64,000 bases of DNA from Fuerstiella sp. (GTDB lineage: Bacteria > Planctomycetota > Planctomycetia > Planctomycetales > Planctomycetaceae): positions 1 to 64,000 of the forward strand of contig JALHMY010000007.1 in assembly GCA_022843805.1 (NCBI GenBank), in the 5' to 3' direction. Made by a program: the position numbers and the translations under genes. The notes under the pieces are model-generated. The model did not search any database. It worked only from the letters and a program-made list of their open reading frames with translations, and had not been told where the DNA came from. Shown here one piece after another: positions 3,895 through 45,483 of this stretch; position 1 is the first letter of the stretch; each line of letters opens with the position of its first letter.

Positions 3895-5607
3895 ATGCGG
3901 CAGAAAGCAGAGATCAGAGTTCTACTCGCACTGGCCTGTCTGGGGACAGGGCTGCTGACTGGTTTGGCTGGTCTTCACGCCGATGAAAAGCAGAATCCGG
4001 CGGAACCGGTTTACGATCTCGTCATTCGTGGCGGGAAGATTGTTGATGGGACCGGCAATCCCTGGTTCTTTGGTGATGTGGCTGTTCGCGGAGATCGGAT
4101 TGTCGCGACAGGAAAAATTCCCAAAGGTACTGCAAAGACCGAAATCGACGCCACGGGACTGGTCGTTTCCCCCGGATTTATTGACATTCACTCGCACTCA
4201 GATCTGGTGATTCTTGAAGATACCCGCGCGGAAAGCAAAGTGCGTCAGGGCGTGACAACGGACGTGCTGGGTGAAGGCAGTTCAGAAGGTCCGTGGCACG
4301 GTGCGACATCCTCGCCCCGTATTTCGGTCAATGGTACTGATCGAAAATGGACACGGCTCGGAGAATACTTCGATCTGATTGATGAGGCTCGAGTGTCAAT
4401 CAACATTGCGTCGTATGTTGGCATCGGAAACATCTGGCAGTCGGTGATGGGAAGTTCATTTGACCGGCCCACTCCGGAACAGCTCACTCAGATGCAGGCC
4501 TACGTGGACGAAGCAATGCGGGACGGCGCGCTTGGTCTGTCCAGCCAGGTGATGATGCCGCCGGGTTCGCTGGCTCAGACAAGCGAGCTTGTGTCCCTGT
4601 GTGAGGTAGTCGCAAAACACGGAGGCATTTATTCCACTCATATTCGCAATGAGGGGCTTGGTGTTTTTGAGGCCGTTAAGGAGGCCATCGAAATTGGTGA
4701 ACGAGCACGTGTGCCGGTGGATGTCATCCATCTGAAGATTGCTGATCAGCAATACTGGGGTCGGATGGCTGAAGTGATTGAACTGATTGAAAGCGCACGC
4801 TCGCGAGGGGTCAATGTGCAGGCCAATGTTTATCCCTATACCCGTGGTAACAATGACCTCGTCAGTATCATTCCCCCATGGGCACATGAAGGAGGAAAGG
4901 AGCAGCTCATTGCAAGGCTGAAGGATCCCGAACAGCGAGCCCGCATACGAAAGGATGTGATTGACGGCATTCCCGGATGGTACAACCATTACACGGCAGT
5001 GGGGGGAGACTGGAGCCGCATGCTGGTCAGTGCAAACAATTCTTATAAGGGGCTGACCATGGATCGAGTCTTTGCCCTGCGGGCAGGTGACAAACCACTT
5101 CGGGATTCTCTGGACGAACTGTTTGACATTCTGATCGAGCAAAACGGATCTGTCAGTACTGTCTATGCGCATCACACTGAAGAAGATATGACACTGGCGA
5201 TGTCACAGCCATGGTGTTCGATTGGCAGCGATGGTTCGGCGCTGGCCATTGACGGATTATTGCGGCGAGGCAATCCCCATCCGAGAAGCTTCGGAACGTT
5301 TCCGCGAGTTCTGGGAGTTTACACTCATCAGGCCGGGTTGCTGCGGCTTGAAGATGCCATCAGGAAAATGACATCTCTGAACGCTGTCAAGGCGGGACTG
5401 CCGGACCGGGGCTTTCTTTTCCCCGGAAAATTCGCGGATATCACAGTCTTTTCGGAAGATCGAGTGATTGATCAGGCCACTTATACAGAGCCTTTCAGCT
5501 ATTGCGAGGGTATCGAGTATGTGGTGGTTAACGGACAGGTGGTTCTGGAACGCGGCAAACGCACAGATGCCCGACCTGGCCGCGCTATTCGTCATCAGTC
5601 ATTCTGA
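3895..5607 (+). CDS. N-acyl-D-amino-acid deacylase-like amidohydrolase, exported
   Basis: This is a metal-dependent amidohydrolase of the D-aminoacylase family, about 570 aa. A hydrophobic signal peptide covers about residues 5-27. The TIM-barrel metal site is visible as SPGFIDIHSHSD (HxH), followed by STHIRNEG, VIHLK, YAHHTEED and SIGSDGSA, the usual order of zinc ligands in this family. Such enzymes hydrolyse N-acyl-D-amino acids or related cyclic and ureido amides; the substrate here is not known. The ATG at 3895 has GGAG ten bases upstream and starts the signal peptide; the frame is open back to 3685, but that extension overlaps the divergent gene and looks non-coding. The next gene follows after 16 bases, so it probably heads an operon. 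Confidence 0.87.
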   Translation: MRQKAEIRVLLALACLGTGLLTGLAGLHADEKQNPAEPVYDLVIRGGKIVDGTGNPWFFGDVAVRGDRIVATGKIPKGTAKTEIDATGLVVSPGFIDIHSHSDLVILEDTRAESKVRQGVTTDVLGEGSSEGPWHGATSSPRISVNGTDRKWTRLGEYFDLIDEARVSINIASYVGIGNIWQSVMGSSFDRPTPEQLTQMQAYVDEAMRDGALGLSSQVMMPPGSLAQTSELVSLCEVVAKHGGIYSTHIRNEGLGVFEAVKEAIEIGERARVPVDVIHLKIADQQYWGRMAEVIELIESARSRGVNVQANVYPYTRGNNDLVSIIPPWAHEGGKEQLIARLKDPEQRARIRKDVIDGIPGWYNHYTAVGGDWSRMLVSANNSYKGLTMDRVFALRAGDKPLRDSLDELFDILIEQNGSVSTVYAHHTEEDMTLAMSQPWCSIGSDGSALAIDGLLRRGNPHPRSFGTFPRVLGVYTHQAGLLRLEDAIRKMTSLNAVKAGLPDRGFLFPGKFADITVFSEDRVIDQATYTEPFSYCEGIEYVVVNGQVVLERGKRTDARPGRAIRHQSF

Positions 5608-5623
5608 TTTCCGGAGTTGAGTC

Positions 5624-28843: not shown

Positions 28844-28868
28844 TTCAGACCATTGTTTCAGACCATTG
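28844..28868. repeat. 12-base direct repeat at the end of cheB
   Basis: TTCAGACCATTG occurs at 28844-28855 and 28857-28868; the second copy covers the stop codon of the minus-strand cheB. The 72-base convergent gap between pump and cheB shows no convincing terminator hairpin. Confidence 0.7.
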
Positions 28869-29928
28869 CATTCTTTGCCTGGGCGTGTTTCAGCATTGCG
28901 GACGCAATTCTGTTAAGGGGCAGCACCTGGCAGGCGGCGTTCATTGCGACGGCTTCTCGAGGCATCCCATAGACTACGCAGGAGGCTTCGTCCTGAGCGA
29001 TGGTATGCGCCCCGGCATGGCGCATTGCCAGTAAACCGTCCGCACCGTCGCGACCCATCCCGGTCAGAATCGCGCCAACTCCGTTCGTACCCAGAAACTT
29101 TGCACAGGAATGAAAAAGAACGTCGACTGATGGCCGGAACCCCGAAACCTTTTCTCCTTCCTTTACTCTCACTGAATACGTTGCTCCGCTTCGATAGGCT
29201 TCCAGATGTCGGTCGCCCTGTGCAATCAGAGCATGACCGGGCAGGATTCGATCTCCGTCAGCTGCTTCACGAATTCGGATCTGACAGGCTCGATCCAGCC
29301 GGTCAGCATAGGATTTTGTATATCCGGGTGGCATATGAATGACGGCGATGACGCCGGGAGCATCCGGTGGAAGCGAGGTGAGAATTTCAGCGAGGGCTTC
29401 TGTGCCGCCGGTTGATGTTCCAATGGCAATGACTTTATGGGTACTGGTTATCAGTGCGTCAGGTGCGAGAGGAGATTTTGTAACCTCCGGTCGAACGGGT
29501 GAGGCAGCCGGACGCACACGGACCTTTGCACCGGCTGCCGCCCGCACTTTTTGAATCAGTTCCGTTTGCAGATCAGGCATGCTGTTCGCAACATCGATTT
29601 TCGGTTTGGTCACGAAGTCGAATGCACCAAGCTCCATCGCTCGAAAAGTCGTTTCACAGCTCCGTTCAGTCAGTGATGACACCATCACGACCGGCATTGG
29701 ACGACTGGCCATGAGCTTTTCAAGGAATGTGAGCCCATCCATTCTGGGCATTTCCACGTCCAGAGTCATCACGTCCGGATTCAGTTTCATAATTTTGTCA
29801 CGAGCTACATACGGATCACTTGCCGTGCCCACGACCTCAATGTCGGGATCCTTCGAAAGAAGATCTGAAAGCAGCTGTCGCATCAGAGCAGAATCGTCAA
29901 CGATCAGTGTGCGAATTTTTTTTGTCAT
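28858..29928 (-). CDS. cheB: CheB chemotaxis protein-glutamate methylesterase
   Basis: A 356-aa two-domain response regulator. The receiver domain (about 1-120) has DD at 11-12, the phospho-acceptor D57 in MTLDVEMPRMDG and K108. After a linker comes the methylesterase domain (about 163-350) with catalytic S172 (GTSTGG), H198 (IHMPPGYTKSYADR) and D294 (GMGRDGADG). It removes methyl groups from, or deamidates, MCP glutamates when phosphorylated by CheA. It is the last gene of the minus-strand chemosensory operon, 60 bases after the CheR-CheD fusion. Confidence 0.96.
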   Translation of the reverse strand: MTKKIRTLIVDDSALMRQLLSDLLSKDPDIEVVGTASDPYVARDKIMKLNPDVMTLDVEMPRMDGLTFLEKLMASRPMPVVMVSSLTERSCETTFRAMELGAFDFVTKPKIDVANSMPDLQTELIQKVRAAAGAKVRVRPAASPVRPEVTKSPLAPDALITSTHKVIAIGTSTGGTEALAEILTSLPPDAPGVIAVIHMPPGYTKSYADRLDRACQIRIREAADGDRILPGHALIAQGDRHLEAYRSGATYSVRVKEGEKVSGFRPSVDVLFHSCAKFLGTNGVGAILTGMGRDGADGLLAMRHAGAHTIAQDEASCVVYGMPREAVAMNAACQVLPLNRIASAMLKHAQAKNAMV

Positions 29929-29988: not shown

Positions 29989-31605
29989 TTAAAACAGTAT
30001 CACATTCGCCGAATCGCCCGGCTGTTGTGCTCGAATTCGCCGCATCTGCAGCAGGTCGGCTTCGATTTCCGCCCGACATTTTTGCAGTGGCCGTATAAAC
30101 GCCTGGCCCGTATGCGTCAGAAACTGCACCTGGCGTCCGGATTCTCCCCCCACGTCCTTTGCCACAACCGGAATAGAATCCGTCTCAAGGAATTCGATGG
30201 CAAAGCGGATATTCCGATCTCCGATAGCCCAGACAGGGTTATCGGGTTCCTGGCGTGCCAGCACATTGCCACCACCGAAGACTTTTGCGTTCAGCCTTCT
30301 GCGGTCACCACCCAGTTTCATGATCTGGTTGATCAGCAGTTCCATCGCATGGATTCCGTAACTTGCACAGATTCTGTCATTTCCGGCATTCGACGGGAGC
30401 ATAAAGTGATTCATGCCACCAATTCGGGCGACGGGATCGTACAGGCAGACTGCAATGCAGGAGCCCACAAGAGTTGTCACCTTCATTGGCTCGGCACTCG
30501 CCTGAATTTCTCCGACGATGATCGACTGAGTTGGAAAGAGGAGTTCATTATCCTGCAGCAAAACGGGAGCAGCGGGACCGGCTCCTGTATTTGTCTGTAC
30601 TCGCCCCGTCGATCTGCGATGGCTGCCGGAATCCGAATGCGCCGTCTGACCGGTCTGATGTTCTGCTGTCGGTCCCGGGGAAATGCTGGCGGCTTTTGTT
30701 TTGAGAGCGATGGCATTCGCGGGCGGGCGGCGGGCGGCACCGGCTTTCGACGACAGCTGATATACCGTGTTACCAAGTGACTGATACAGGTCGTCCAGTC
30801 GCAGAATTGACTCGCTGTGACCGATAAAAAGGTGACCATTCGGTTTCAATTGTTCCGAGAACCGTGTGAGCAGAGTGTCCTGCGTTTTTTCGTCAAAGTA
30901 AATCATGACGTTGCGACAAAAGATGATGTCAAAGTCCGTCTGAATTGGCCATGCCGGTTCAATAAAGTTGATGCGACGGAATGTGATCATTTCCTGGAGT
31001 TCCGGCCGAATGCGTAACGGAGCTTCCGGATCTTTGGATGTTTTCAGGAAATGCCGTTTCAGGACATCGCGGGGAACGTCGGCAACTCGGTCCGCTTCGT
31101 AAAGACCTTTCTGTGCGTGAGCCAGAACATCAGTGTCCACGTCAGAGGCAAGGATTCGGATATCCCATCCGTGAAAAGTTGTGGGTCCGAAATGGTCCAG
31201 AACCGTCATGGCCAGAGTGTAGGGTTCTTCTCCTGTTGAGCATGCAGCACTCCATATTCGGATTTTTCTCTCACCCGTTTCGCGAGCCTGCTTTTCAAGC
31301 TGGGGGAAAACGGTTCGGCGAAGATATTCGAAGTGATGTGATTCCCGAAAAAAATCTGTCTTATTGGTCGTAAGGCTGTTGATCATCCGCAGCCGTTCTT
31401 CACCATTCGGATCTCCCTTTTTCAGAAAATCGTAGTACTGTGTGAACGTCGTAAGGTCGCAGGCACGCAGTCGCTTTGAGAGTCGTGATGCGACAAGCTG
31501 CTGCTTTCCATCACCCAAAGAGATGCCAGCTTCCTTATAAATCAGTTCCCGAAAGAGATTGAACTCTTTCTGCGTCAGTGCTGCGGTTGTGGTCTGATCC
31601 TGCAT
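29989..31605 (-). CDS. CheR methyltransferase fused to CheD deamidase
   Basis: A 538-aa fusion. Residues about 10-285 are CheR: the N-terminal helical domain with NKTDFFRE, the SAM-binding segment WSAACSTGEEPY (118-129) and FCRNVMIYFD (229-238). A linker rich in S, T, G and P (about 290-350) leads to CheD (about 355-520), with catalytic Cys383 in TTLVGSC and His400 in GGMNHFMLP, plus YGIHAMELLIN and KVFGGGNV. CheR methylates receptor glutamates and CheD deamidates receptor glutamines, so one polypeptide would carry two receptor-modifying activities, with CheB next to it. No in-frame stop or frameshift separates the halves. Confidence 0.94.
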   Translation of the reverse strand: MQDQTTTAALTQKEFNLFRELIYKEAGISLGDGKQQLVASRLSKRLRACDLTTFTQYYDFLKKGDPNGEERLRMINSLTTNKTDFFRESHHFEYLRRTVFPQLEKQARETGERKIRIWSAACSTGEEPYTLAMTVLDHFGPTTFHGWDIRILASDVDTDVLAHAQKGLYEADRVADVPRDVLKRHFLKTSKDPEAPLRIRPELQEMITFRRINFIEPAWPIQTDFDIIFCRNVMIYFDEKTQDTLLTRFSEQLKPNGHLFIGHSESILRLDDLYQSLGNTVYQLSSKAGAARRPPANAIALKTKAASISPGPTAEHQTGQTAHSDSGSHRRSTGRVQTNTGAGPAAPVLLQDNELLFPTQSIIVGEIQASAEPMKVTTLVGSCIAVCLYDPVARIGGMNHFMLPSNAGNDRICASYGIHAMELLINQIMKLGGDRRRLNAKVFGGGNVLARQEPDNPVWAIGDRNIRFAIEFLETDSIPVVAKDVGGESGRQVQFLTHTGQAFIRPLQKCRAEIEADLLQMRRIRAQQPGDSANVILF

Positions 31606-31675: not shown

Positions 31676-32164
31676 TCATACAGTCTGTGCGGTTACATGG
31701 TTGCCCAGCAGTCGATCGATATCCAGAAGAGTAATCAGTCGATCGCTCGACTTGGCCATACCGGTGATAAAGCTGGTATCAATATCGCAGCCGAGATCCG
31801 GCAGCTGTTCCAGTTCTGCGTCACCAACATTCAGAACATCCGAAACGGCATCCACCACAAGTCCCATAACTTTTTGGCCAACCGTTACGATGATGATCAC
31901 CGTGAACTGGTTGTAAGTGGCGGCCGGCATACTGAACCGATGTCGCAGATCAACGACCGGAACGACAGTACCCCGAAGATTCATGACGCCCCGGATGTAT
32001 GGCGGGACATTCGGAATCTGTGTCAGATGGGTGAGCCCCTTAATTTCCTGGACTCGCAGAATGTCGATTCCGAATAGTTCTTCCGCCAGCTGGAATGTGA
32101 GGAACTGACTTCCGCCTTCGGTCATATCACTGAGTGCAGAAGTGGACAGAGTAGCTGTTGACAT
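31676..32164 (-). CDS. cheW: CheW coupling protein
   Basis: A 162-aa CheW-domain protein. FLTFQLAEELFGIDILRVQEI opens the double beta-barrel; NVPPYIRGVMNLRGTVVPVVDLR is the classic CheW core, and VVDAVSDVL follows. It bridges CheA to the MCPs in the receptor array. It lies 71 bases upstream of the CheR-CheD gene and about 125 bases after the membrane MCP. A short Ser/Thr-rich N-terminal extension (about 18 residues) precedes the domain. Confidence 0.95.
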   Translation of the reverse strand: MSTATLSTSALSDMTEGGSQFLTFQLAEELFGIDILRVQEIKGLTHLTQIPNVPPYIRGVMNLRGTVVPVVDLRHRFSMPAATYNQFTVIIIVTVGQKVMGLVVDAVSDVLNVGDAELEQLPDLGCDIDTSFITGMAKSSDRLITLLDIDRLLGNHVTAQTV

Positions 32165-32289: not shown

Positions 32290-34929
32290 TCAGAATTCCA
32301 TGAAACCGGAGCCCATCAGCTGACCGATCTGACTGGATGCTTTTTCAAGTTCCGCTTCGGCAGATCGGCCCGCAACGCCACTTCCGGAATCCGAAGTGGG
32401 GCGTACCGTCATCACGGTATTCGTGGTTCTGCGAGCAGTTCTCGGTGCGGCCTCTGATCGGTCCTGGTCAAGACGGAACTGACCAACCAGAACTCGAAGC
32501 TGCTCTGCGTGGTCCAGCAGCGAAGCGGCAGTTCCCGACATTTCTTCTGTCTGAGAAGCATTGTTCTGAGTCACGCGATCCATTTGTGCAACTGCCTTAT
32601 TGACCTGTTCGATGCCGGTCAGCTGTTCCTTCGAAGCGGCAGCAATTTCTGCCACAATGTCGGTCACTCGTTTGACGGAATTCACGATTTCTTCGAGCGT
32701 TTTTCCGGACTGATTGACGAGTGAAGAACCGTTTTCCACCTTGCGAACGGAGTCCTGAATCAGAGACTTGATTTCTTTCGCGGCGGATGCACTGCGCTGA
32801 GCAAGATTACGAACCTCAGCCGCGACCACTGCAAATCCCCGACCCTGCTCACCAGCCCTGGCGGCTTCCACGGCTGCGTTCAGAGCAAGCAGATTTGTCT
32901 GAAATGCAATTTCATCGATTGTGGTAATGATATCGGCAATGCGAGTTGATGCATGATTGATTTCACTCATCGCCCGAACGGCATCACCAACAACGACTCC
33001 ACCCTTGTCCGCGACATCGCGTGAACCGTTTGCCAGCTGTCGAGCCTGCTGAGCGTTGTCCGTGTTCTGCTTGACGGTTGATGTGATTTCCTCGAGGCTG
33101 GATGCTGTTTCTTCCAGACTGGATGCCTGATGCTGTGCACCTTTCGAAATTTCATGGGAAGCGGAAGTCATCTGTGATGCTGCGGATGCAACCGTTTCTG
33201 CAACACTGCGCACCTGAAGCAAAGCGCTGCGGATGGCGGCAACGGCGGAATCCAGCGCCTTAGCAACCTGTCCTACCGCATCATCGCCCAGATCAGGGAT
33301 TGTCAGATCAAAATTGCCGTCCGCCACTGCGTTAACAATCTGAAGGATTTGCTGAACCTTTCGTCGCTGCAGTTCAGCGTCGCTGCGTTCGCGTTCCCCT
33401 CGTTCCTGTTCCAGAGCTTCTGACGTCTTCTTGTCGGCGAAGAACTTCCGCAAACCCTGGCCAAGCTGGCCAATTCCGTCCTCGCCGGCGACGGTGATTT
33501 CGACGGTATAGTCGCCCTGCGATACCCGATTGGCAACATCCAGAATCTGAGCCACGTTCGTTTTCAGCTCTTCGGCCTGCTTTGCGTCAAGTCGCTGACG
33601 TTCCAGAATGCTGGCTTCCATTTGTTTTGTGCGAGTGATCTCAGTGGCATACTTGACGACCTTGTATGGTTTTCCCGTCTGATCAAAGATCGGGTTATAG
33701 GAAGCCAGGAGCCAGATCTCCCTGCCGCCCTTGCCAATGCGACGGTACTCGCCCGAGTCAAATCGCCCTTCGTTCAGCTGAGCCCAGTGCTGGCGATATT
33801 CGGCGGTGTTCACCGTCGCGGGATCCATCAGCATGCTGTGATGCCTGTTCCGGATTTCATCGATCGAATATCCGGTTGCAGCAAGGAAGTTCTGATTGGC
33901 ATTGACGATCGTCCCATCCATTCGAAACTCGACCACAGCCTGGGACTTCCCAACGGCCGCAGCCAGAGCCTTGTTTTCCATGCTGTCTGCGTGCAGTTCC
34001 GCCAGCTTTCCCAGCAATGAGTTGAGAGCCATCTTGCCTCGATTCAATTCGCCAGGAAGGTCCTCGTTCAGTTTCAGGGAGAAGTCCTGACGAGTGGCAG
34101 CTTCCATTGACTGAATCATTGCAGACAATGCGGAATCCAGCGTCTTTGATGCACCGCTTAGCTCTGCGCCCATCTGATCGATCTCGTCTCCTCCCTGAGT
34201 GCAGAGACGCTGAGAGAAATTGCCGGCGGCAAGTGCCTGAGCAAGTTCACGAGTTGCTGCAAGGCGTCGCGTGGCATTGCGACTGGCAAGCCAGATAATC
34301 GCACCGACGATAAGACATACCGTGATTGCGGTTGCGCTGGTCCACCACATCATTGCATCGATTGTTGCCTGTGTGGATGCTTCCAGCTGACTGTTGTACT
34401 GCTCGGCCAGTTTCACGACTTCTCCGATCGCCTTATGGTGCTGCTCGTATTGCGTCTTCAGCTGGGCGCTGACAAGCGTACGAGCTTCATCAAGCTTTCT
34501 TTCCCGAACCAGAGGGATCAGCTGAGCCTCCAGAATTCGGAAGTATTCAAGTGCGGTTTCCTGAGCCTTTCCGGTGAGAGCGCTGCGAAGTTCGCCTTCC
34601 GGAAGGTGTTTTTTCCAGTGCTCGATTCGCTCAGAGAAAACGGTCTGATGTTCTTCCAGCTTACTGATGAGGCGACTGACTTCACCGGGATCTTCAGCAT
34701 CTGCCAGTGCATGTGTCGTCAGATAAGTTTCGATGATGTATGCGGGAGGGGGCAGGATATCGGCGATCAGGTCTTTTCCCGACGCAATTTCTGTATAGAT
34801 CGGTCCCAGCACCTTAACTTTGCTCACGGTGCGGAAATTCAGTATGGAGCTGGCAAAAATCAGAAACAGCAGGAATAGAGTCAGCAGTCCCAGCTTGCCA
34901 CGAATACTCAAATTCTTTACGACATTCAT
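32290..34929 (-). CDS. Membrane methyl-accepting chemotaxis protein (HAMP, PAS)
   Basis: 879 aa from the ATG at 34929, which has AGGAAG upstream; the frame is open to 35085, but that part shows no signal or domain. The order is TM1 (about 13-32), a periplasmic helical sensor (about 35-185), TM2 (about 195-215), HAMP, a PAS domain ([20 protein letters not shown] onwards), two further HAMP-like segments (one with [20 protein letters not shown]) and a long signalling coiled coil. The CheA/CheW contact tip reads [17 protein letters not shown]. The protein ends GFMEF, which fits the xFxxF CheR/CheB-docking tail consensus. Its ligand is unknown; the PAS domain could sense redox state or a small molecule in the cytoplasm. 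Confidence 0.93.
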
Positions 34930-35085
34930 GATGTTTGGCTTCCTCGGAAGAACGTCAGGATTTTCACTGAGGTAAAATTTTGCGATTGGGTGTATATGGA
35001 TCTCGCGGCCTTCGTTTACAGGCCGCATCGCGGATCCGCTGCATGGAATCCCGGTACGGAAGGACCGGATGAAAGAGACACTCAA

Positions 35086-37044
35086 TCAGAATTCCACGAA
35101 ACCTGCGCTCACGGGCTGCTCGAGTCGGCTGACGACTTTGTCGAGGTTCGTTTCAACAGGTCGCTTGCGGGGTGCACGTGGTTGTTCGCCCATGGAGAAC
35201 GATCGGGGGCGGCCGTGATTATCAGCACTTTCCAGTCGAAACTTTGAAACCAGATCGCGCAGCTGTTCGGAATGCGAAAGCAGCGATTCTGCGGTACCAG
35301 CCATCTCTTCGGTCTGCGAAGCGTTGTTCTGAGTGACACGGTCCATCTGGGCAACCGCTTTGTTTACCTGTTCAATACCGGTTAGTTGTTCCTTTGAAGC
35401 CGCTGCGATTTCGGCCACAATGTCAGTGACTCGTTTTACAGAGACAACGATTTCTTCGAGTGTTTTTCCGGACTGGTTCACCAGAGAAGTACCGTTCTCG
35501 ACCTTCTTAACTGAGTCCTGTATGAGTGTCTTAATCTCTTTTGCCGCAAGTGCACTTCGCTGGGCCAGATTGCGAACTTCAGCAGCCACAACTGCAAAAC
35601 CTCGTCCCTGTTCGCCTGCTCGAGCTGCTTCGACCGCCGCATTCAGTGCCAGAAGGTTGGTCTGAAACGCGATTTCATCGATCGTTGTAATGATGTCGGC
35701 GATTCTGGTTGATGACTGATTAATCTCACCCATTGCTTTGACCGCATCACCAACAACATGTCCGCCTTTTTCAGCGATATCACGGGACCCTACTGCCAGC
35801 TGCCTCGCCTGCTGAGCATTGTCTGTGTTCTGTTTTACGGTCGACGTAATCTCTTCGAGGCTCGAGGCTGTTTCTTCAAGGCTTGACGCCTGATTCTGTG
35901 CACCTTTGGAGATTTCCGTGGATGCAGCAGTCATCTGAGATGCTGCTGAAGCGACTGTTGCTGAAACAGACTGGACGGAAAGCAGTGCTGTTCGGATGGA
36001 TGTGACAGCGATGTCCAGAGCTTTGGCCACCTGTCCAACTGCGTCCTCGCCAAGGTCGGGTACGGACAGATCAAAATTGCCATCGGCCACAGAATTCACG
36101 ATTCTCAGTACCTGAGCCACTTTGGCGTTCAGTTCTTCCGCGGCCTTCGCGTCCTGCTTCTGACGTTCGGCAATGGCAAACTCCATATTCTTTGATCGGC
36201 TGATGTCCGTCGCATATTTCACGACTTTAAACGGACGCCCGTTCAGATCGCAGATCGGGTTATAAGTTGCCTGAATCCAGACTTCTCTGCCACCTTTGCC
36301 AACTCGTCGATACTCTCCTGAATCATGGGTACCTTCATTCAAGCGGGTCCAGAACTGTTTGTATTCGTGTGATGAAGCGACAGATGGTTCAAGAAACATG
36401 CTGTGATGCTTGCCGCGAATTTCCGCCATCGAGTAGCCCATGGTCGAAAGGAAATTTTCATTGGCATGCAGGATGTTACCGTCCATTGTGAATTCGACGA
36501 CAGCCTGAGATTTATTGATTGCTGCCAGCTGTCCGGTACTGTCACGAAGAGCGGTCACATCGCACCATTCCAGAGAAAATCCGGCTGGTTTTCCCTGTGG
36601 ATCATTGATTGCGGTCACATGCAGCTGGATTTTCGCATCGCCAATCGTGATGTCGGTTTTGACGGGCAGATTTCGGGGATCGCTCAGCAGTTTACGCTGA
36701 TGACCGGGTACCTTGTGGAATCGGTCGATGCATGTTCCCAGGATTTTCGATGCTTCGAAGTCCGGCCACAGGCGTCGCAGACTATCTGCGTGGCGTGCAA
36801 ATAAATCCATCGTGCCCTGATTCACATAGGTCACAATGAAATCGGTGTTGACGACCATAATCGCACTGGTGACCCGATTCATCAGTTCATGGGCCAGCTT
36901 AAGCTCTGCTGCACCCGGGCCTGTTTCAGCGTTTCGGGGCCGGGACTTTTTGGTGGCACCTGGCTTCTTTCCGGAAGAGTCCGACTTCGCGCTCTTTGTC
37001 CTGCTGCTTTTCTTTGGAAGACTGCTCTTTGACTTTACGACCAT
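35086..37044 (-). CDS. Soluble PAS-containing methyl-accepting chemotaxis protein
   Basis: 652 aa from the ATG at 37044, with AGGAG upstream; the frame is open to 37146, but the extra residues carry no domain. The first about 38 residues are very rich in Lys and Ser. Two PAS domains follow (about 45-165, and about 170-290 beginning [18 protein letters not shown]), then one HAMP-like segment ([21 protein letters not shown]) and an MCP signalling domain nearly identical to that of the next gene (tip [17 protein letters not shown]). No transmembrane helix is present, so it should be cytoplasmic or attached through its basic tail. It ends GFVEF, again an xFxxF tail. It lies 156 bases before the membrane MCP gene and probably arose with it by duplication. 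Confidence 0.92.
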
Positions 37045-37220
37045 GGATATGCTCCTGTTGAACTTTCCAAAGGAAAGACGATTAGACCCTGAAAGCAAAG
37101 CTGAAAGACCGAAAACCATTCGGTCCGCAAGGTGATAAAAACACAATATGATTCGATCGCAGCGCGGTAAAAAGACCCGACTGCACTCGTTAATGACCGG
37201 TGAATCGACAGACCGCCCAA

Positions 37221-39389
37221 CTACACAGCGTGGTGTTCCGCCGCGATGATCGGCTGGTCGGCGCTGAGTGAATGGTCAGCAGCTGCAGAACTGCGCGTTG
37301 CAAGTCCGCACAGACCGTTGATATCCAGAATCAGTGCAACTCGGCCATCCCCAAGAATTGTCGCACCCGCCACTCCCGGAACTTTTTGGAAGTTGGCTTC
37401 AAGATTCTTGATGACAACCTGCTGCTGACCGAGCAGTTCGTCGACGGCGAGGGAATACTTGCGGCCCTGATCTTCCACGATTACAAGAAGATCATCATTG
37501 TTTTCACGGCAGGATTGCCGCAGGTTGAGAATCCGATCCAGTCGAAGGAGCGGAACAATTTCGCCTCGCAGCGTAATGACTTCTCCTCGTGCCAGCACTT
37601 TCTGAATGCCGTTACTGGTCGGTTTGATCGATTCCACAACGGACAGCAGCGGGATGACATAGCTGTCGCTGGCGACACGGACCAGAAGGCCGTCCAGGAT
37701 CGCAAGTGTAAGAGGCAGCCTGACGATCATGCGACATCCTTTGCCCTTAACTGATCGTATCGAAATACTGCCCTGCAATGCTTCCACATTTCGCCGCACC
37801 ACGTCCATGCCGACTCCGCGGCCCGATACGTCTGTGACCTGTTCGGCTGTGGAGAATCCGGCGGAGAAAATGAGTCCGAAGATGTCTTCGTCCGACAGAT
37901 TGTCTGATTCGGAAACAATCCCACGTTCAATGGCCTTGCGAAGAATTCGGTCGCGATCAAGGCCCTTGCCGTCGTCTTCAATCTCGATAATGAAGTTGCC
38001 ACCCTGATGATAGGCACGCAGGCAAACGACACCCTCGGGTGATTTTCCCGCAGCTGCTCGTTCTTCCGGTGTTTCGATCCCGTGATCAACCGAGTTTCGA
38101 ACCATATGCAGCAGTGGATCACCGATCTGGTCGACAACAGTCTTGTCGAGTTCGGTTTCTTCACCCTCCGTTTCGAAACGAACCTGTTTTCCAAGTCGGT
38201 GACTCAGATCCCGGACGATGCGAGCCATTTTCTGGAACGTCGCGGCGATGGGCACCATACGCAGCGACAGACTCATTTCCTGGAGATCGCGAACAATCTT
38301 GCCAAGCTGTACCAGCGCGCTGGATTCCATGTCGGGATGGAAACGCTGCCAGTCCTGTTCGACCATGGATGTTCCGATCACCAGTTCCCCGATCTGGTTG
38401 ATCATTTTATCGAGTCGTTCCCGGTCAACCCGGACGGTCTCATGTGACCCTGCTGCCGATGTCGGACCCGATGATTCCTTTGTTGGAGGGCTGTTCTCAG
38501 ATCGTCGATCGTCACCTGAACGACGTTCGCCGGATGCCCCGGGGCCGCCGTTAGTGTTGCCGGACGATGGTCTGGTCTCGGGCTGAGTGATACTGTCGGA
38601 ACTGACTGGTTCGCTGACGCGGATCGGCGGACCGCTCTGCGTGGAAATGCCGTCGTCAGTCTTTGTTTCGGGATGGCTGATGAGCTCAATTGCCGGACTG
38701 CTGTCGTCATCCACAAACATAAAGACATCCTGAATAACATGTTTTGGACTGGATGTCGTCAGTTCAATATCCCATCCCATGCAGCAGGACTCGGGGTCCA
38801 GTCGGGAAAGCGATGGCAGTTTCGAAAGGTTCGCAACTGAATGAAACGACTGGCTGAGTTTCTGCAGTTCATCCAGCATGAACAGAGGATTCTGGCCGAA
38901 ATGAAAGAATGTCGGCGATGGCTGAAATCGAATGTGCCACGTCTGACAGGAAGCTGCAGGATCAATTGCAGGTACAGGGTGAGTGCTGTGCTGAGAAGGT
39001 GCACACTCAGAGGAGTATTGCTGCAGTGCGTGAAAGACTGACTCCACCTGTTCCGGAATTTCTGTCTGATTCTTCTCGGCCTGAATTAAACCGGCCAGCA
39101 CATCTGTTGCCTTCAATAGCAGTTCGCAGAGTTCGGCGGTCGGCAGGACTTCTCCCTCACGCATACGATCCAGGAGATTCTCGAGGACGTGTGTGAAACG
39201 TGCCACCTGATCAATTCCGAATGTTGAACTGGCGCCCTTGATGCTGTGAGCTGCCCGGAAGATCGTGTTCAGGAGTTCGCGATCTTCTCCGGAATTTTCG
39301 AGCTGCAGCAGTGCGGCTTCCATGCTCTCCAGATGTTCGACGGCTTCTTCATAGAATGCCGCGCGAAAACGATTCAGATCAATTTCCAT
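37221..39389 (-). CDS. cheA: CheA chemotaxis histidine kinase
   Basis: A 722-aa CheA. The Hpt domain (1-110) carries phospho-acceptor H48 in [15 protein letters not shown]2-like domain (about 148-240) begins [20 protein letters not shown]. An acidic/Pro/Gly linker rich in T, S and P follows (about 240-310). The dimerisation domain starts [19 protein letters not shown]. The ATPase domain has [12 protein letters not shown] (N box), DDGKGLD (G1) and GRGVGMDVV (G2), and a CheW-like domain closes the protein. It phosphorylates CheY and CheB. It is preceded by cheY and followed by the two MCP genes. Confidence 0.96.
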
Positions 39390-39491: not shown

Positions 39492-39857
39492 CTAGGGAAC
39501 AACCTTGGACACAACCTGCAGCAGTTGCTCAGGATTGAAAGGCTTCACCATCCATCCAGTGGCTCCGGCTGACTTTCCTTCCTGCTTCTTCGCATCCTGT
39601 GACTCTGTGGTGAGCATCAGGATGGGGGTGAATTTAAAACTGGAGATTTTTCGCAGTTCGCGAATCAGTGTGATGCCGTCCATAACCGGCATATTCAGGT
39701 CGGTCACAACCAGATTCACCGATTTGCCACTGACCTTACCGAGCGCGTCCTTACCGTCCGAGCCTTCAATGACTTCGAACCCGGCGGACTGCAGAGTGTA
39801 GGAAACCATTTGGCGCATTGACGCAGAGTCATCAACGACCAGAGCCATCTTCGACAT
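39492..39857 (-). CDS. cheY: CheY response regulator
   Basis: A 121-aa single-domain receiver. The start is the ATG at 39857, with GGGAG upstream, giving MSKMALVVDDSASMRQMV; the frame runs nine codons further but without support. DD near residues 9-10, the acceptor Asp in VVTDLNMPVMDG, the conserved Thr (MLTTES) and Lys (VKPF) are all present. It should be phosphorylated by CheA and act on a motor or pilus machine not encoded in this window. It sits directly upstream of cheA, 27 bases after the MCP-like gene with a CheZ-like motif. Confidence 0.95.
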   Translation of the reverse strand: MSKMALVVDDSASMRQMVSYTLQSAGFEVIEGSDGKDALGKVSGKSVNLVVTDLNMPVMDGITLIRELRKISSFKFTPILMLTTESQDAKKQEGKSAGATGWMVKPFNPEQLLQVVSKVVP

Positions 39858-39884
39858 GACTGAGATACTCCCGGAACAATTCAA

Positions 39885-41003
39885 CTAAAACAATTCGATC
39901 GAACCAAAATCTGAGTTTCCGCTTTGCTGAGCGGACAGGTTTCCTGTGGCGATGACATCGCGTTCTGATTTCATCGTGCTGCGTGATTCAAGCCACTTGC
40001 GCCAGTCGCTGGCTCGTGCTTCGACTTTGTCAGCCGGTGTCTGTCGCGCAAACGGAGTCAGGTTCTCGTGGATTGCATCGAGTGCTTCGACCACATGGTC
40101 CAGCCGCTGATTGACCCGATCCTGGAACTGCAGAGCCATTACAGATCGACCTATCTCGCGGGAGAGAGATTCGCTGACACTCTCCGTTCTCTGCAGTGAA
40201 CTGGTCATGCCCTGGTGCATGATGCCCAGCTGATCCAGCAGCTGCACAACCGTTTCCTCACTTCGCCGGGCTGTTGCTGAATCGATTGAGATCCGAGCCT
40301 GCAGCTCACCGGCTACGGATCTGAGTGATTCATCCAGTTTTTCCACAAGTTTGCGAATGGAAGAACTTGTTTCCGATGCATGGATTCCCAGATTCTTGGT
40401 TTCGTTGGCCACGACGTTAAATGCGGCTCCATATTCGCCCGCCCGTGCAGCTTCCAGCCGGCCGTTGAGTCCGACGATTCGTGCCTCTTCAGAAATGCGT
40501 TCCACTCTGACGAGGCTTGCGTCCACACATGACAGAACCTTTTCCAGTTCTTCGATTCTCACGGACAGCTGTGCGGACAGCTGACTCGATTCCTGTACAG
40601 CGCTCAGCAGGCTTTGCAGCACACAGCGAATCTCGAAAAGGGTTTGCTCCGTTGAGAGACCGTTCTGAGAGCTCAGGCCGCCCTGGGCGATCTGTACAGT
40701 TTCACGAGCCTGAGCCGCCATTCCGCCGAAACCGGTACTGATCTGCAGAACTGAATCCTGAAGATCGCTGGCTGTTTCACGCAGATGTCTTGAGAGTGCA
40801 TTCAGCAGGGGAAGAGTGGCTGCGACTTCCACGGGATCTGCTTTCACGGATAAGCGTGGTCGGCTGGTATTCGAGTGTGTACGACTGGATGAAGCGATTG
40901 CCGACAGGTGTTCGCTGTCGGCTACGCACTCCGCAGACCCTGACGGCGTCCATCTTCGGAAAAACTGCAGCCATTGAGGCCGCCATTCAAAGATGCGTTT
41001 CAT
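39885..41003 (-). CDS. MCP-hairpin protein with CheZ-like FQDxxxQ motif
   Basis: A 372-aa soluble helical protein without transmembrane segments, HAMP or PAS. The middle (about 165-230) resembles an MCP signalling tip: GLNGRLEAARAGEYGAAF against [17 protein letters not shown] in the true MCPs. The later segment LQFQDRVNQRLDHV (291-304) matches the CheZ phosphatase motif FQDxxxQ, with D295 and Q299 at the catalytic Asp and Gln positions. It lies between the STAS gene and cheY and could dephosphorylate CheY-P. The operon has no separate CheZ, CheX or CheC. AGGAA precedes the ATG. It is commonly annotated simply as a methyl-accepting chemotaxis protein; the phosphatase role is inference. Confidence 0.82.
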   Translation of the reverse strand: MKRIFEWRPQWLQFFRRWTPSGSAECVADSEHLSAIASSSRTHSNTSRPRLSVKADPVEVAATLPLLNALSRHLRETASDLQDSVLQISTGFGGMAAQARETVQIAQGGLSSQNGLSTEQTLFEIRCVLQSLLSAVQESSQLSAQLSVRIEELEKVLSCVDASLVRVERISEEARIVGLNGRLEAARAGEYGAAFNVVANETKNLGIHASETSSSIRKLVEKLDESLRSVAGELQARISIDSATARRSEETVVQLLDQLGIMHQGMTSSLQRTESVSESLSREIGRSVMALQFQDRVNQRLDHVVEALDAIHENLTPFARQTPADKVEARASDWRKWLESRSTMKSERDVIATGNLSAQQSGNSDFGSIELF

Positions 41004-41059: not shown

Positions 41060-41377
41060 TCAGGCGGCCTGATTCAGCAGAATGTTTGACAGACCGGCCA
41101 AATCCAGCCAGTGGGTGACAGATGCCGCATTCTCCCGAATGCGGATGATCACCTGAGTTGTCGAATCACTGATTGCTGCCATCAGGATTTGAATGGCGGA
41201 GACGTCGAAGGCCGTGATATCGTGCAGACAGATGTCTACTCGGGCATGCTTTTCGCAAGCTGCAAGAACTGCCTGATGGAGGGCGACTGCGTTCCTGACA
41301 CTGAGGTCACCACTGATACGAATCTGGCAAACGAGAGAATCTTCTGACTCTTCGACGAAACACTGCATTTCGTTCAC
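41060..41377 (-). CDS. STAS-domain protein of the chemosensory operon
   Basis: About 105 aa. The start is one of two closely spaced GTGs; GGGGGAG lies about seven bases before the GTG at 41377, and an alternative at 41383 adds two residues. The fold is STAS: IRISGDLSVRNAVALHQAV, VDICLHDITAFDVSAIQILMAA. The segment DVSAIQIL replaces the phosphorylatable DSSGL of anti-sigma antagonists but keeps a Ser. Such proteins are frequent at the head of chemosensory operons, function unclear. It is the first gene of the operon; the promoter should lie in 41384-41965 on the minus strand. Confidence 0.83.
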   Translation of the reverse strand: MNEMQCFVEESEDSLVCQIRISGDLSVRNAVALHQAVLAACEKHARVDICLHDITAFDVSAIQILMAAISDSTTQVIIRIRENAASVTHWLDLAGLSNILLNQAA

Positions 41378-41383
41378 GACCAC

Positions 41384-41965: not shown

Positions 41966-42331
41966 ATGCAGGTTGCCATTACCTGCCGTCACGGCAGTAT
42001 CCGACCGGAACTTCGCGAATACATTGCTCGCAAGTCAGAAAAGCTGGTCCGTTATCTGGATCAGGTCAGTGAAATTGACGTGACGGTCGAATTTGAGGGG
42101 CCGCGAGTCAGCGTGGAAATGCTGGTGGAAATCGTTGGTTACCATACGATCGTGGCTCATGTGGAAGGTGAGGACGCGGGGGCGACGTTTGATAAGACGC
42201 TGCATAAGATGGAGCAGCAGGTTCATCGGTATAAGGAAAAGCGACAGGACCATCGTCGGGATAAGACAATCGCAGAAGTTCTTCCGACGGGGGACGATGG
42301 TGCGCAATCTGAAACGGAAGAAACCGAATGA
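41966..42331 (+). CDS. hpf: Ribosome hibernation promoting factor, short type
   Basis: A 121-aa protein of the HPF/RaiA (sigma-54 modulation) family: MQVAITCRHGSIRPELREYI opens the beta-alpha-beta-beta-beta-alpha fold, and VEIVGYHTIVAHVEGEDAGATFDKTLHKMEQQVHRYKEKRQ covers the basic surface that binds the 30S decoding region. The length matches the short form, without the C-terminal dimerisation domain of long HPF. AAAGGA precedes the ATG. As in many bacteria it is followed by a PtsN-like gene; rpoN, often upstream of this pair, is absent here. Confidence 0.92.
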   Translation: MQVAITCRHGSIRPELREYIARKSEKLVRYLDQVSEIDVTVEFEGPRVSVEMLVEIVGYHTIVAHVEGEDAGATFDKTLHKMEQQVHRYKEKRQDHRRDKTIAEVLPTGDDGAQSETEETE

Positions 42332-42560
42332 ACTGGCGGCTGAATGATTTGATAAATGTCCGTCTCATGGCCACTGTTTGCTGATGATCCTGTTTTGGCG
42401 GTGGTGATATTGTTGCTGGTGTTGTGTCGTACCGTGTGTAATGGTGAGTTCGGATACGAAGAATGGATGCCGGAGGGCTGCTGGCCGCGTCGTGTCGACG
42501 CTGGCGTGGTCCGGTGTTTGAGTTTTTTTTGCGATTGATTGCTTGAGAGTAGTTTGAATT

Positions 42561-43037
42561 ATGAAGCTCACTGATTTTGTAGTTCGAGAGGCGATTGTTC
42601 CGAACCTGAAGTCAACGTCAAAACAGGACGTGATTCGGGAGGTGGTTAGTAGTCTGAAGGCAACCGGAGCAATCAAGGCGGCAGATGAAGAAGCTGTTGT
42701 TGCTGCCATTTTGAAGCGTGAGGAACTCGGCTCGACGGGCATTGGAAATGGAGTTGCTGTCCCCCATACAAAACATCCATCGGTCGAGCGCCTTTCTGCA
42801 GCGGTCGCGATTTCCCGCAGCGGTGTTGACTTTGCCAGTCTCGATGGCGAGCAGGTATTCATTTTGTTCCTGCTGGTTTCCCCTCCGGACCGTCCCGGAG
42901 ACCACTTGCGCGGGCTGGAAAACATTTCCCGTCATCTGCGAAGTCAGGACTTCTGTAATTTTCTGAAGCAGTCCATGACCGAGGCGGATATCTGGGACCT
43001 TCTGGTTGAAGCAGACGAAGGCGACCGTGACAATTGA
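42561..43037 (+). CDS. ptsN: PtsN-like PTS EIIA (nitrogen type)
   Basis: A 158-aa EIIA of the fructose/nitrogen class. The phospho-acceptor is H69 in [37 protein letters not shown] is the typical second half. With no EIIB or EIIC in the window, it is probably regulatory, receiving phosphate from the HPr and EI encoded just downstream. It lies 229 bases after hpf, a gap in which I see no further feature. The start fits family N-termini ([18 protein letters not shown]). Confidence 0.9.
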
Positions 43038-43140
43038 TGTCCTGTCTGAGCCATCAGTCGGTGAATGTGCCATCAGCTCGGCGAGGACGAGTTAACGGGA
43101 ATGCAGATCGTGCTGCCCGTGCACTGAAACCCTCCGGCAT

Positions 43141-43198
43141 AATGGTTTCCGGCATCTGGTTTTCCGGCAAAATGGTTTCCGGCATCTGTTTTCCGGCA
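43141..43198. repeat. Tandem duplication of about 29 bases before the HPr gene
   Basis: AATGGTTTCCGGCATCTG plus TTTTCCGGCA occurs at 43141-43169 and 43171-43198, the second copy one G shorter. The core TTTCCGGCA therefore occurs four times. It ends 20 bases before the HPr start codon. Confidence 0.8.
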
Positions 43199-43218
43199 TG
43201 AGGGTTGAGGAGCGAAGA

Positions 43219-43506
43219 ATGAGTGGTTCAGATGTTGCCACCAGGCAGGTCAGGCTGTCTGTTCCTCATGGGTTGCACCTTAGTCCTATCTCGCAACTGG
43301 TCAGCCGGGCGTCGGAGTTCTCCTGTTCGGTCACGCTGTCCTTTGATGGAAGGACGGCGGACGTGAAGTCAGTCTATGATCTCATGCTTTTGGCAGCTCC
43401 GTACGGCGCACAGTTAATGCTCGAAGCCAGAGGCGCAGATGCAGATTTGGCTGTGGATGCTCTTGCAAAGCTGTTCGAGGGTGGTTTTCTAATCCCCTCG
43501 GAGTAG
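43219..43506 (+). CDS. ptsH: HPr-like phosphocarrier protein
   Basis: A 95-aa HPr. The ATG at 43219 follows GAGGAG by seven bases; the upstream in-frame ATG at 43198 lies in the repeat and lacks a site. The active-site histidine is H20 in VPHGLHLSPIS, but the usual GLHARPA reads GLHLSPI: the conserved Arg after the histidine is Ser. The Ser46 equivalent is kept (KSVYDLM), so regulation by an HPr kinase remains possible. The C-terminal GADADLAVDALAKLF is canonical. It stands between ptsN and the EI gene, suggesting a regulatory PTS relay EI, HPr, EIIA. Confidence 0.9.
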   Translation: MSGSDVATRQVRLSVPHGLHLSPISQLVSRASEFSCSVTLSFDGRTADVKSVYDLMLLAAPYGAQLMLEARGADADLAVDALAKLFEGGFLIPSE

Positions 43507-43734
43507 CGGGTCTGGACAGAGTTGCAGCTCTGGCAGGCTTTCTGCGATCTGTGAGTCGTTCGACACAGAGTTGCATGAGGGACTAGAATCCCGCTGCAGA
43601 ATGGATGAGGCCGTGGTGACTCATTCAATGAAGAAATTGGAAACAGGTTCGGATGCGGTTTGCGGACTGGGCTCAGCGCCAGAAGGGAACTGCGGAAGAA
43701 TTGCGGAAGCAGTCAGAATTTGGCGTTGTCCTGT

Positions 43735-45483
43735 ATGCATGTTCGCAGTGGAATTGCAGTCTCTCCGGGTGTTGTCACCGGGCCAGCACTCGTGCTGGGG
43801 TCCGAAGACTTTCGTATCCCCCGAAAGTTTGTGACGCGCGATGCCGTGGATGCCGAACTGCATCGATTTCATTCGGCTCTTGATGATGTTTGTCGTGATA
43901 TTCGAGCTCATGAGAAGCTGGTTTCCGCACAGCTTGGAGCACAATACGGCGCGATCTTTTCTGCACACCTGCAGATGGCGCAGGATCCGAAACTGATTCG
44001 GGAAGTGGAGACGCTGATTCGAGATCAGTCTCATTCTCCTGAGTACGCTGTTAGTCGGGTTTTGCGCAGATTTGCTGAGCAGATGCAGGCTTTGGGAGAT
44101 CGTTACCTTTCGGAAAGAGCGCTCGACATCTTTGATCTCGAAAAGCGTCTTCTGCGTACCCTGCTGGGTGAAAGCCGGGAGGAGCTGTCAAATCTGACTG
44201 AGCCTGTGATTATCCTGGCTCATGATCTGACCCCTGGGGAAACGGCCACTCTGGATACTCGCTTTGTTCTGGGGTTCGCCACGGAAGTGGGAGGTCATAC
44301 CAGCCATACCGCAATTTTGGCGGGTGCGCTGGAGATTCCGGCAGTCGTGGGGCTGGGACGCTGTCTTGCCGGCGTTTCCGGAGGTGAGACGGTAATTCTG
44401 GACGGCGATCACGGCCAGGTGGTCATTGATCCGGACACCGCGACTCTGGATCGATTCCGGATTTCGCAGGCCAGAAATCTCCGTGTGTATGAGCGACTGG
44501 AGCAGCTGGAGAGTCTGCCGGCGGAGACGCAGGATGGTCAGAGAGTTCAGCTGCTGGGGAATATCGAGTTTCCTGAAGAGGTTCAGCAGTGTATTCGACG
44601 AGGTGCAGACGGTGTCGGCCTCTACAGGACTGAGTTCCTGTTCCTTAGCGGGAACCGGGAGCCGACGGAGTCTGATCATTACGAAGCGTACTGCCGGGTG
44701 CTGGAAGCCTGTGGCGACCTCCCCGTTGTGATTCGAACCCTGGACATCGGTGCGGATAAGATTCCAGGGGCCATGCAGCAGCAGTTTTCTGACAGCCAGA
44801 ATCCGATGCTGGGACTGCGAAGCATTCGTTTAAGCCTCAGAAATACGCCGCTGTTTAAGACGCAGTTGCGGGCAATTCTGCGAGCTTCCGTGTATGGTAA
44901 CGTGAAAGTCATGTTTCCGCTGGTTTCGACGTTGCTGGAGTTTCGCCAGGCCAGAATGATCCTGATGGACGTTATGGAAGACCTGGAAGACGAAGGGATT
45001 CCATTTCAAAGAAACCTGCCGATTGGCATGATGGTGGAGGTGCCTTCGGCCGTTCTGCTGGCCGACGAATTTGCACGGGAAGTCGATTTCTTCTCGATTG
45101 GTACGAATGACCTGATTCAATACACTCTGGCATGTGACCGGTCTGATCCGTCGGTCGCAAATTTGTACCGTTCAGGGGATCCGTCAATTCTGAGGCTGAT
45201 TCAGATGGTTATGAAGGCAGCGGAAAAGCACAAAAAAACGGTGACTGTCTGCGGTCAGATGAGTTCGGATCCGCGATTTATACCGTTGTTGCTGGGGCTG
45301 GGACTGCGCAGCCTCAGTGTGACACCGCACGCTATTCCCAGACTGAAGGAGGTTGTTCGCAACGTTTCCATTACGGAAGCCGAGCGTATTGCCAATCATG
45401 CGTGCGAACTGGACCTGGCACGGGATGTGGAGCACTTCCTTCTCGGGGAATTGTCACGACTTTGTCCGGATCTTGTTGTTTAG
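43735..45483 (+). CDS. ptsI: Phosphoenolpyruvate-protein phosphotransferase (EI)
   Basis: About 582 aa. I start at the ATG at 43735, giving [19 protein letters not shown], the normal EI N-terminus; the frame is open upstream from 43660, but those residues do not match EI, and no strong Shine-Dalgarno site is seen. The phospho-histidine is H191 in [10 protein letters not shown]. The PEP-binding barrel includes [11 protein letters not shown]-like [38 protein letters not shown] and the catalytic Cys in VCGQMSSDP. It should phosphorylate the HPr encoded just upstream using PEP. No sugar permease is linked. Confidence 0.95.

Follow-up and report, generated by a model that had tools for sequence, protein, structure and literature searches.

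Phosphorylated CheY (CheY-P) is switched off by the phosphatase CheZ, in which D143 contacts K109 of CheY and Q147 orients the attacking water; where CheZ is absent, the same function is supplied by phosphatases of the CheC, CheX and FliY type. The conserved residues of CheZ form the pair AXXFQ and DXXXQ, as described for the Azorhizobium protein (PMC7750401), and CheT of Sinorhizobium meliloti, a DXXXQ protein with a CheZ-like model, speeds phosphate loss from one of two CheYs (PMC12654446). The McpA-like receptors (CttP/PA0180, VCA1088) are located in F7 chemotaxis clusters, are dispensable for the formation of arrays and end in a non-pentapeptide C-terminus of striking conservation, the role of which is left unclear in the portion of PMC7184735 drawn on here. 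We analysed a window of 64,000 nucleotides from Fuerstiella sp. (assembly GCA_022843805.1, contig JALHMY010000007.1, positions 1 to 64,000) and in it a minus-strand gene (39885-41003) encoding a receptor-like protein of 372 amino acids (aa) with a CheZ-type motif; the plus strand of the same span is interrupted by stops. The family to which this protein belongs is probably a CheY-P phosphatase of the CheZ type with a chemoreceptor hairpin as its scaffold. We found no description of a CheZ motif in a chemoreceptor among the titles and abstract openings of the open-licence PubMed Central articles that our searches listed.

The sequence ALQFQDRVNQ of the window protein fits all five fixed positions of the joined CheZ motif AxxFQDxxxQ. 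An earlier note on this DNA had pointed to LQFQDRVNQ, which indeed occupies residues 291-299 and includes D295 and Q299, some 105 residues past the tip of the receptor hairpin. When E. coli CheZ is aligned with five members of the family, its residues A138, D143, Q147 and F214 coincide with A290, D295, Q299 and F372. A hidden Markov model (HMM) of 26 CheZ sequences, built only from CheZ open reading frames (ORFs) with the string QD(L/I/V)(T/A)(G/A)Q, was searched against 3570 ORFs, a database from which the window protein itself was absent; it gave 32 matches at E≤10 and 10 at E≤1e-3, all of them bearing both the motif and a conserved C-terminal tail in -LF or -FF, with the catalytic D and Q aligned in 32/32. 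These matches comprised 32 of the 92 motif-bearing ORFs, 0/69 other methyl-accepting chemotaxis proteins (MCPs) and 0/3409 other ORFs. In the reverse search with an HMM of the family, the CheZ of 25 out of 30 loci outranked the first non-CheZ protein, an MCP (E 2), the lowest-ranked being E. coli CheZ (E 0.027). Comparison of the C-terminal helix of the family with the 26 CheZ sequences by hhalign gave a probability of 90-92%, with 53 gapless columns in the local run, against 0.8% for the C-helices of canonical MCPs versus CheZ and 13% for the family versus MCP C-helices. With the ten motif residues masked, the score (27.5) exceeded the maximum of 17.3 reached by 40 heptad-block shuffles. The hhalign result and the HMM matches in both directions thus argue that the motif helix is, in sequence terms, CheZ-like beyond the bare motif, the motif and its near flanks supplying most of the signal.

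When 40 genomes, the host included, were searched with the whole protein, six sequences were obtained, namely the window protein, a paralogue on contig C16 and four proteins from relatives, at 30-40% identity to the window protein and with Q292, Q294, D295, Q299, E347 and E370 invariant. Scanning genome contigs with a pattern that contained the motif gave at least 598 matching stretches, of which 111 were confirmed as relatives; the 80 loci kept hold 81 motif ORFs and belong, by title, to Planctomycetota, Acidobacteriota and Alpha-, Beta- and Gammaproteobacteria. As these loci were chosen by a pattern that includes the motif, its conservation within them proves nothing alone. We therefore considered separately all distinct ORFs from loci fetched neither by the motif scan nor by the CheZ search. 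Here, 34 ORFs match the window protein and bear the -LF/-FF tail, and 33/34 keep D and Q in the strict pattern (A/G/S/T)(L/M)Q-x-x-D-xxx-Q, one of them (L146) being the Pseudomonas protein used as a query below, itself first found by the motif scan; the strict motif was present in 0/39 matching ORFs without the tail, L155, which reads LLQFQDMVSQ without the tail if the first motif letter is relaxed, being counted as having neither tail nor motif. Since these 33/34 tail-bearing homologues were found without a motif criterion, chance occurrence of the motif was ruled out.

The Pseudomonas member as query (E≤1e-15) had matches, some of them to ordinary MCPs, in 49 of 114 gammaproteobacterial genomes; 30 of these loci were kept and 29 assessed, with LQ(F/Y)(Q/E)DxxxQ present in 23. 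Among members selected for hairpin and tail, of which 69 came from the motif scan, D and Q are kept in 98/98, and 12/98 have G or T before LQ instead of A or S. The hairpin-to-motif spacing in the 81 motif ORFs is the same as in the window protein in 61, longer by one residue in 7, shorter by 36 in 2, otherwise different in 2 and unmeasured in 9. Family ORFs end in [IVLM]x[LFV]F in 81/84 cases, and in the hairpin itself N180, E184, A185, R187, G192, F195, V197-A199 and L205 are invariant over 53 sequences. Two members from different lineages, L026 and L106 (261 aa), are without the hairpin and keep motif and tail, L106 matching neither MCPsignal nor CheZ in Pfam; the retained module is thus the CheZ-like helix plus tail. 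Both forms occur in one genome (L035 5422-6354 and an ORF of 357 aa on the opposite strand, the latter also present in L026), a divergent gene having the hairpin and an operon gene being without it. At L036, two CheZ-like receptor genes (4015-5100 and 5601-6647) stand in tandem before a single cheY, a duplication that could mean heterodimers. Four records from plasmid collections were examined, three of which hold a family member (L112-L114) and one an ordinary MCP (L115).

The gene order STAS, CheZ-motif receptor-like gene, CheY, CheA, MCP, MCP, CheW, CheR-CheD fusion, CheB was observed in the window operon, on the minus strand, so that CheY is the next gene, as the earlier note had stated. 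The most likely start of cheY is the ATG at 39857 behind GGGAG, 27 bases past the stop of the CheZ-motif gene, in preference to the TTG at 39884 used in ORF calling. In the family, CheY lies directly downstream of 62/81 motif ORFs under a strict rule, and CheZ-motif gene, cheY, cheA is a frequent order. The note's further remark that the operon is without a known phosphatase is right for the operon but would not be so for the genome: searches of the latter found no CheZ or CheC at E≤1e-3, whereas one CheX was matched on contig C1, amid another chemotaxis gene group, and a FliM is also present. That second group (L176, G000:C1:112000-131500) holds CheX, CheY, CheR, CheB, CheW and four MCP matches, none of the latter with the CheZ motif, and no CheA match was obtained in the stretch. 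The paralogue on C16 (L179, G000:C16, 7615-8610) is an orphan of 332 aa with GMQFQDRVNQ and the tail SIELF, no further chemotaxis gene being matched in the 16 kb around it. Among 30 family-bearing genomes tested, 10 (by title 7 Planctomycetota and 3 Acidobacteriota) show no CheZ, so that the occurrence of the family fits a phosphatase role; the remaining 20, all proteobacterial by title, have a CheZ match over the cut-off.

The presence of STAS genes in the window cluster and in the clusters of some homologues could indicate a CheZ-type phosphatase with CheB or a regulator of the STAS pathway, rather than the adjacent CheY, as its main substrate, and in F7 clusters of stage 1 the genes for an anti-sigma antagonist and a serine phosphatase adjoin mcpA (PMC7184735). 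We regard this as very improbable, as a stand-alone adjacent CheY is the commonest feature of the clusters and the CheY of the window keeps K109.

The relation to F7 clusters bears on the McpA-like receptors. Stages 1-2 of these clusters are described as having cheY and no cheZ, mcpA as being lost at stage 3, and the F6 cheY/cheZ pair as entering the cluster at stage 4 (PMC7184735). For VCA1088, the lack of any experimental report is noted in a 2020 review (PMC7534058), and the words CheZ and phosphatase are absent from the main text of a paper on Shewanella McpA (PMC9855816). We found that a Vibrio replicon with F7-type gene order encodes a family member with ALQFTDIIVQ and the end -EVELF, which matches the window protein with 73.7 bits in phmmer, and that two gammaproteobacterial genomes with the same type of order (L181, L182) encode members with SLQFEDMTKQ and ALQFEDIVRQ, ending in -IELF and -VELF. 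Three further stretches (L183-L185) hold a family member, with no CheA, CheW or CheR match within the stretch. On these sequences, the McpA-like receptors of F7-type clusters belong to the CheZ-motif family, the F7 assignment being by gene order and not by CheA class models, and the comparison being with the relatives named and not with PA0180 and VCA1088 themselves. The genome of Pseudomonas otitidis has two F7-type clusters, each with a family member of its own.

The tail of the family was also found on CheD. Among 13 CheDs detected, [IV]xLF stands at or near the end in 8/9 of those from clusters with an -LF family member and in 0/4 of those from -FF clusters. This sharing suggests, at the level of tail residues, a common docking partner for CheD and the CheZ-like protein, and since CheD carries the same type of tail, the tail looks like a docking element without a necessary part in catalysis. 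It could be argued from this that the family is a CheY-binding scaffold or sink, in which the CheZ-like face and the tail would keep CheY, phosphorylated or not, at the array with no fast hydrolysis, the more so as the residue before the catalytic D varies and is E or T in the F7-type members. The catalytic D and Q, however, hardly vary, neither in the 98 members chosen by hairpin and tail nor in the motif-independent sample, which makes such a scaffold unlikely.

Several results weigh against a CheZ-type phosphatase. The Pfam CheZ model scores the window protein at 16.5 bits (E 0.008, residues 250-327), below its cut-off of 30.7, and finds 1/6 members at E≤1 (the window protein itself) and 1/6 others at E≤0.1; the CheZ HMM at E≤10 misses 60 of the 92 motif-bearing ORFs, and the family HMM misses the CheZ of 5/30 loci. 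Masking the motif lowers the hhalign probability to 22% over the same 53 columns, and a reversed decoy scores 23.2, leaving a modest margin below 27.5. To these can be added that F7-type members carry FED or FTD and not FQD, and that in L171 (654-1526), a tail-bearing homologue, DVVRR replaces DxxxQ and the hairpin is altered (EAAGAGE), this being perhaps a decayed or inactive member. The structure models are likewise of this kind. The AlphaFold monomer of the window protein is a long helical hairpin (mean predicted local distance difference test, pLDDT, of 80; predicted template modelling score 0.49), the best PDB matches of which are MCP cytoplasmic domains such as 2ch7_B (Z 13.2, 269 residues, root-mean-square deviation 3.1), although Z values of that size come easily with helical bundles; CheZ is not among the listed fold matches. 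In a monomer model of an in-frame read-through of the window protein into CheY, run without a positive control, the tail is not docked on CheY, and residues 357-382 are below pLDDT 50, the tail being disordered. As a monomer model with no control it is given little weight, neither supporting nor excluding docking of the tail on CheY. In favour of the CheZ-type reading, D295 and Q299 fall, like Q292 and Q294, at columns of the amphipathic helix that are polar throughout the alignment, itself selected by the motif; among the columns that are entirely or almost entirely hydrophobic are 280, 284, 287-291, 293, 297, 301, 304, 308, 311 and 315.

The remaining adverse results would favour an ordinary accessory chemoreceptor that signals to CheA, the motif being a structural feature of its C-helix bundle. 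The MCP-like hairpin of the earlier note, GRLEAARAGEYG, is in place at residues 181-192, the Pfam MCPsignal model scores above its cut-off and the predicted fold is MCP-like; PA0180 is reported to act in chloroethylene chemotaxis (PMC9864684, PMC7534058); and a hydrophobic stretch precedes the bundle on its N-terminal side in 50/81 motif ORFs, which were read from stop to stop and may thus include untranslated residues; no such stretch is evident in the window protein. Moreover, two MCPs of Chromobacterium, L055 9226-10896 (557 aa) and L082 7746-9428 (561 aa), carry AMQLQDLMQQ in the C-helix, so that true receptors can contain the motif string. In these two, which end in the pentapeptide-like KFSKY and whose clusters also hold a family member, the distance between hairpin and string is about one heptad greater than that in the window protein; both count among the 92 motif-bearing ORFs and not among the 32 CheZ-HMM matches. 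The other loose motif matches in MCPs, 6 in 66 MCP ORFs, are all N-terminal to the hairpin.

Against an accessory receptor stands the loss of receptor features. A strict methylation consensus is present in 7/98 family members (7 sites) versus 48/54 canonical MCPs (204 sites), the latter chosen by the canonical hairpin string, a length >400 and absence of the -LF/-FF tail, and the strict CheZ-type motif was found in 0/54 of them. The window protein has zero such sites, compared with three in each MCP of its operon; reading the motif as a methylation site is disfavoured, since the strict consensus is absent. The CheR pentapeptide x-[HFYW]-x-x-[HFYW] ends 1/84 family ORFs versus 41/66 MCP ORFs at the same loci, and the SIELF terminus of the window protein is no such pentapeptide, as is also true of many genuine MCPs. 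No sensor or HAMP domain was found in the window protein by Pfam, a weak criterion, as some MCPs have none. Thus 91/98 members are without the strict consensus and 83/84 without the pentapeptide, the motif helix is closer to CheZ than to MCPs, and McpA-like receptors are not needed for arrays (PMC7184735), so that we hold an accessory receptor to be quite unlikely. Because the CheZ active-site residues are present and the methylation sites absent, a role of the family in switching CheY off is probable, in chemosensory systems with no other known phosphatase.

As a CheZ-type phosphatase, the protein would form a homodimeric four-helix bundle in which D295 and Q299 face K109 and the phosphorylated aspartate of the CheY encoded in the operon; as in CheZ, D295 would orient CheY and Q299 the attacking water. 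The tail would bind CheY or some other partner that CheD shares, and through the MCP tip the phosphatase would be placed in the array of receptor, CheA and CheW or tuned by it; McpA-like members would then be the missing signal-termination enzyme of F7-type clusters. The earlier note had proposed an array-linked CheY phosphatase. The CheZ-type part of that proposal is strengthened by motif conservation, CheZ profiles, synteny and the lost methylation sites, whereas array linkage can be called only plausible: the hairpin residues are conserved, yet two natural members do without the hairpin and McpA-like receptors are unneeded for the F7 array (PMC7184735).

Gating by the array and descent of CheZ from the family are put less firmly than the phosphatase activity. 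A wider scheme, which we offer as doubtful and tentative, is that receptor-phosphatases are widespread array components in which the tip gates a built-in CheY-P phosphatase, that CheZ is a stripped-down descendant that lost the tip, a loss which the two hairpin-less members seem to have undergone independently, and that the tail of CheD in -LF clusters couples termination to adaptation via a common partner, possibly CheY. Under this scheme, stimuli would act on the making as well as the breaking of CheY-P. If the proteins of the family are CheY-P phosphatases, functional sense could be made of the published course toward the E. coli system, in which mcpA is lost and cheY/cheZ are gained later, the origin of CheZ from a receptor hairpin would become testable, and a group annotated as methyl-accepting chemotaxis proteins would be unmethylated enzymes.

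The features of the window operon, together with two CheDs from other loci that share the tail, are collected in Table 1. A 585-aa ORF similar to the CheR-CheD fusion of the window was seen at L033. Adjoining the operon, at 41966-45483 on the plus strand, lie genes which by eye we take to be look-alikes of a ribosome-hibernation factor, phosphotransferase system (PTS) EIIA, HPr and PTS enzyme I.

Table 1. Coordinates of the chemotaxis operon of the window, of sites within the CheZ-motif protein, and of two further CheDs with the shared tail.
Feature	Position	Strand	Remarks
Receptor-like protein with CheZ-type motif, 372 aa	39885..41003	-	Pfam MCPsignal 44.5 bits, cut-off 34.6
MCP signalling hairpin tip, residues 174-205, ARIVGLNGRLEAARAGEYGAAFNVVANETKNL	40389..40484	-	Pfam MCPsignal over residues 158-288
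CheZ-type motif AxxFQDxxxQ, residues 290-299, ALQFQDRVNQ (D295, Q299)	40107..40136	-	
Conserved C-terminal tail GSIELF, residues 367-372	39888..39905	-	
CheY, likely substrate	39492..39857	-	E. coli CheY D12, D13, D57, T87, K109 all kept
STAS-domain protein (anti-sigma factor antagonist type), upstream	41060..41383	-	
CheA kinase	37221..39389	-	
PAS-MCP receptor	35086..37146	-	3 methylation consensus sites; C-terminus GFVEF
HAMP/PAS MCP receptor	32290..35085	-	3 methylation consensus sites; C-terminus GFMEF
CheW	31676..32164	-	
CheR-CheD fusion, 538 aa, ending NVILF (shared tail)	29989..31605	-	Named from translation; also matched by CheD seeds, its own CheD part being among these
CheB	28858..29928	-	Name from translation alone, without family search
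CheD with shared tail, L112	6923..7618		
CheD with shared tail, L181	7766..8422		

Compared with the known systems, the window protein shares with CheZ (PF04344) the motif AxxFQDxxxQ, the 53 gapless residues around it, a helical hairpin and a conserved C-terminus ending in F; it differs in having an MCP signalling hairpin and in scoring under the Pfam cut-off, and the tail of its family, -IELF or -ITFF, differs from the C-terminus DDLLDSLGF of E. coli CheZ. The CheC/CheX/FliY phosphatases belong to other Pfam families than those of the window protein, CheC and CheX being absent from its Pfam matches at E≤1, and the host has its one CheX elsewhere. The hairpin tip and the antiparallel coiled coil are shared with MCP signalling domains, among them that of the soluble chemoreceptor of Thermotoga maritima (PDB 3g67); the family differs from these in its near lack of methylation sites and pentapeptides and in its CheZ motif. 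CheT resembles the window protein in DXXXQ and in its likeness to CheZ, whereas it forms complexes with CheR, and the available part of its description, on which the comparison is based, mentions no receptor hairpin (PMC12654446). As for the McpA-like receptors of F7 clusters, those published have a predicted transmembrane region, which is not evident in the window protein, and the portion of PMC7184735 used here regards them as receptors whose role is unclear; their relatives in F7-type gene order carry (A/S)LQF(E/T)DxxxQ and end in -VELF or -IELF.
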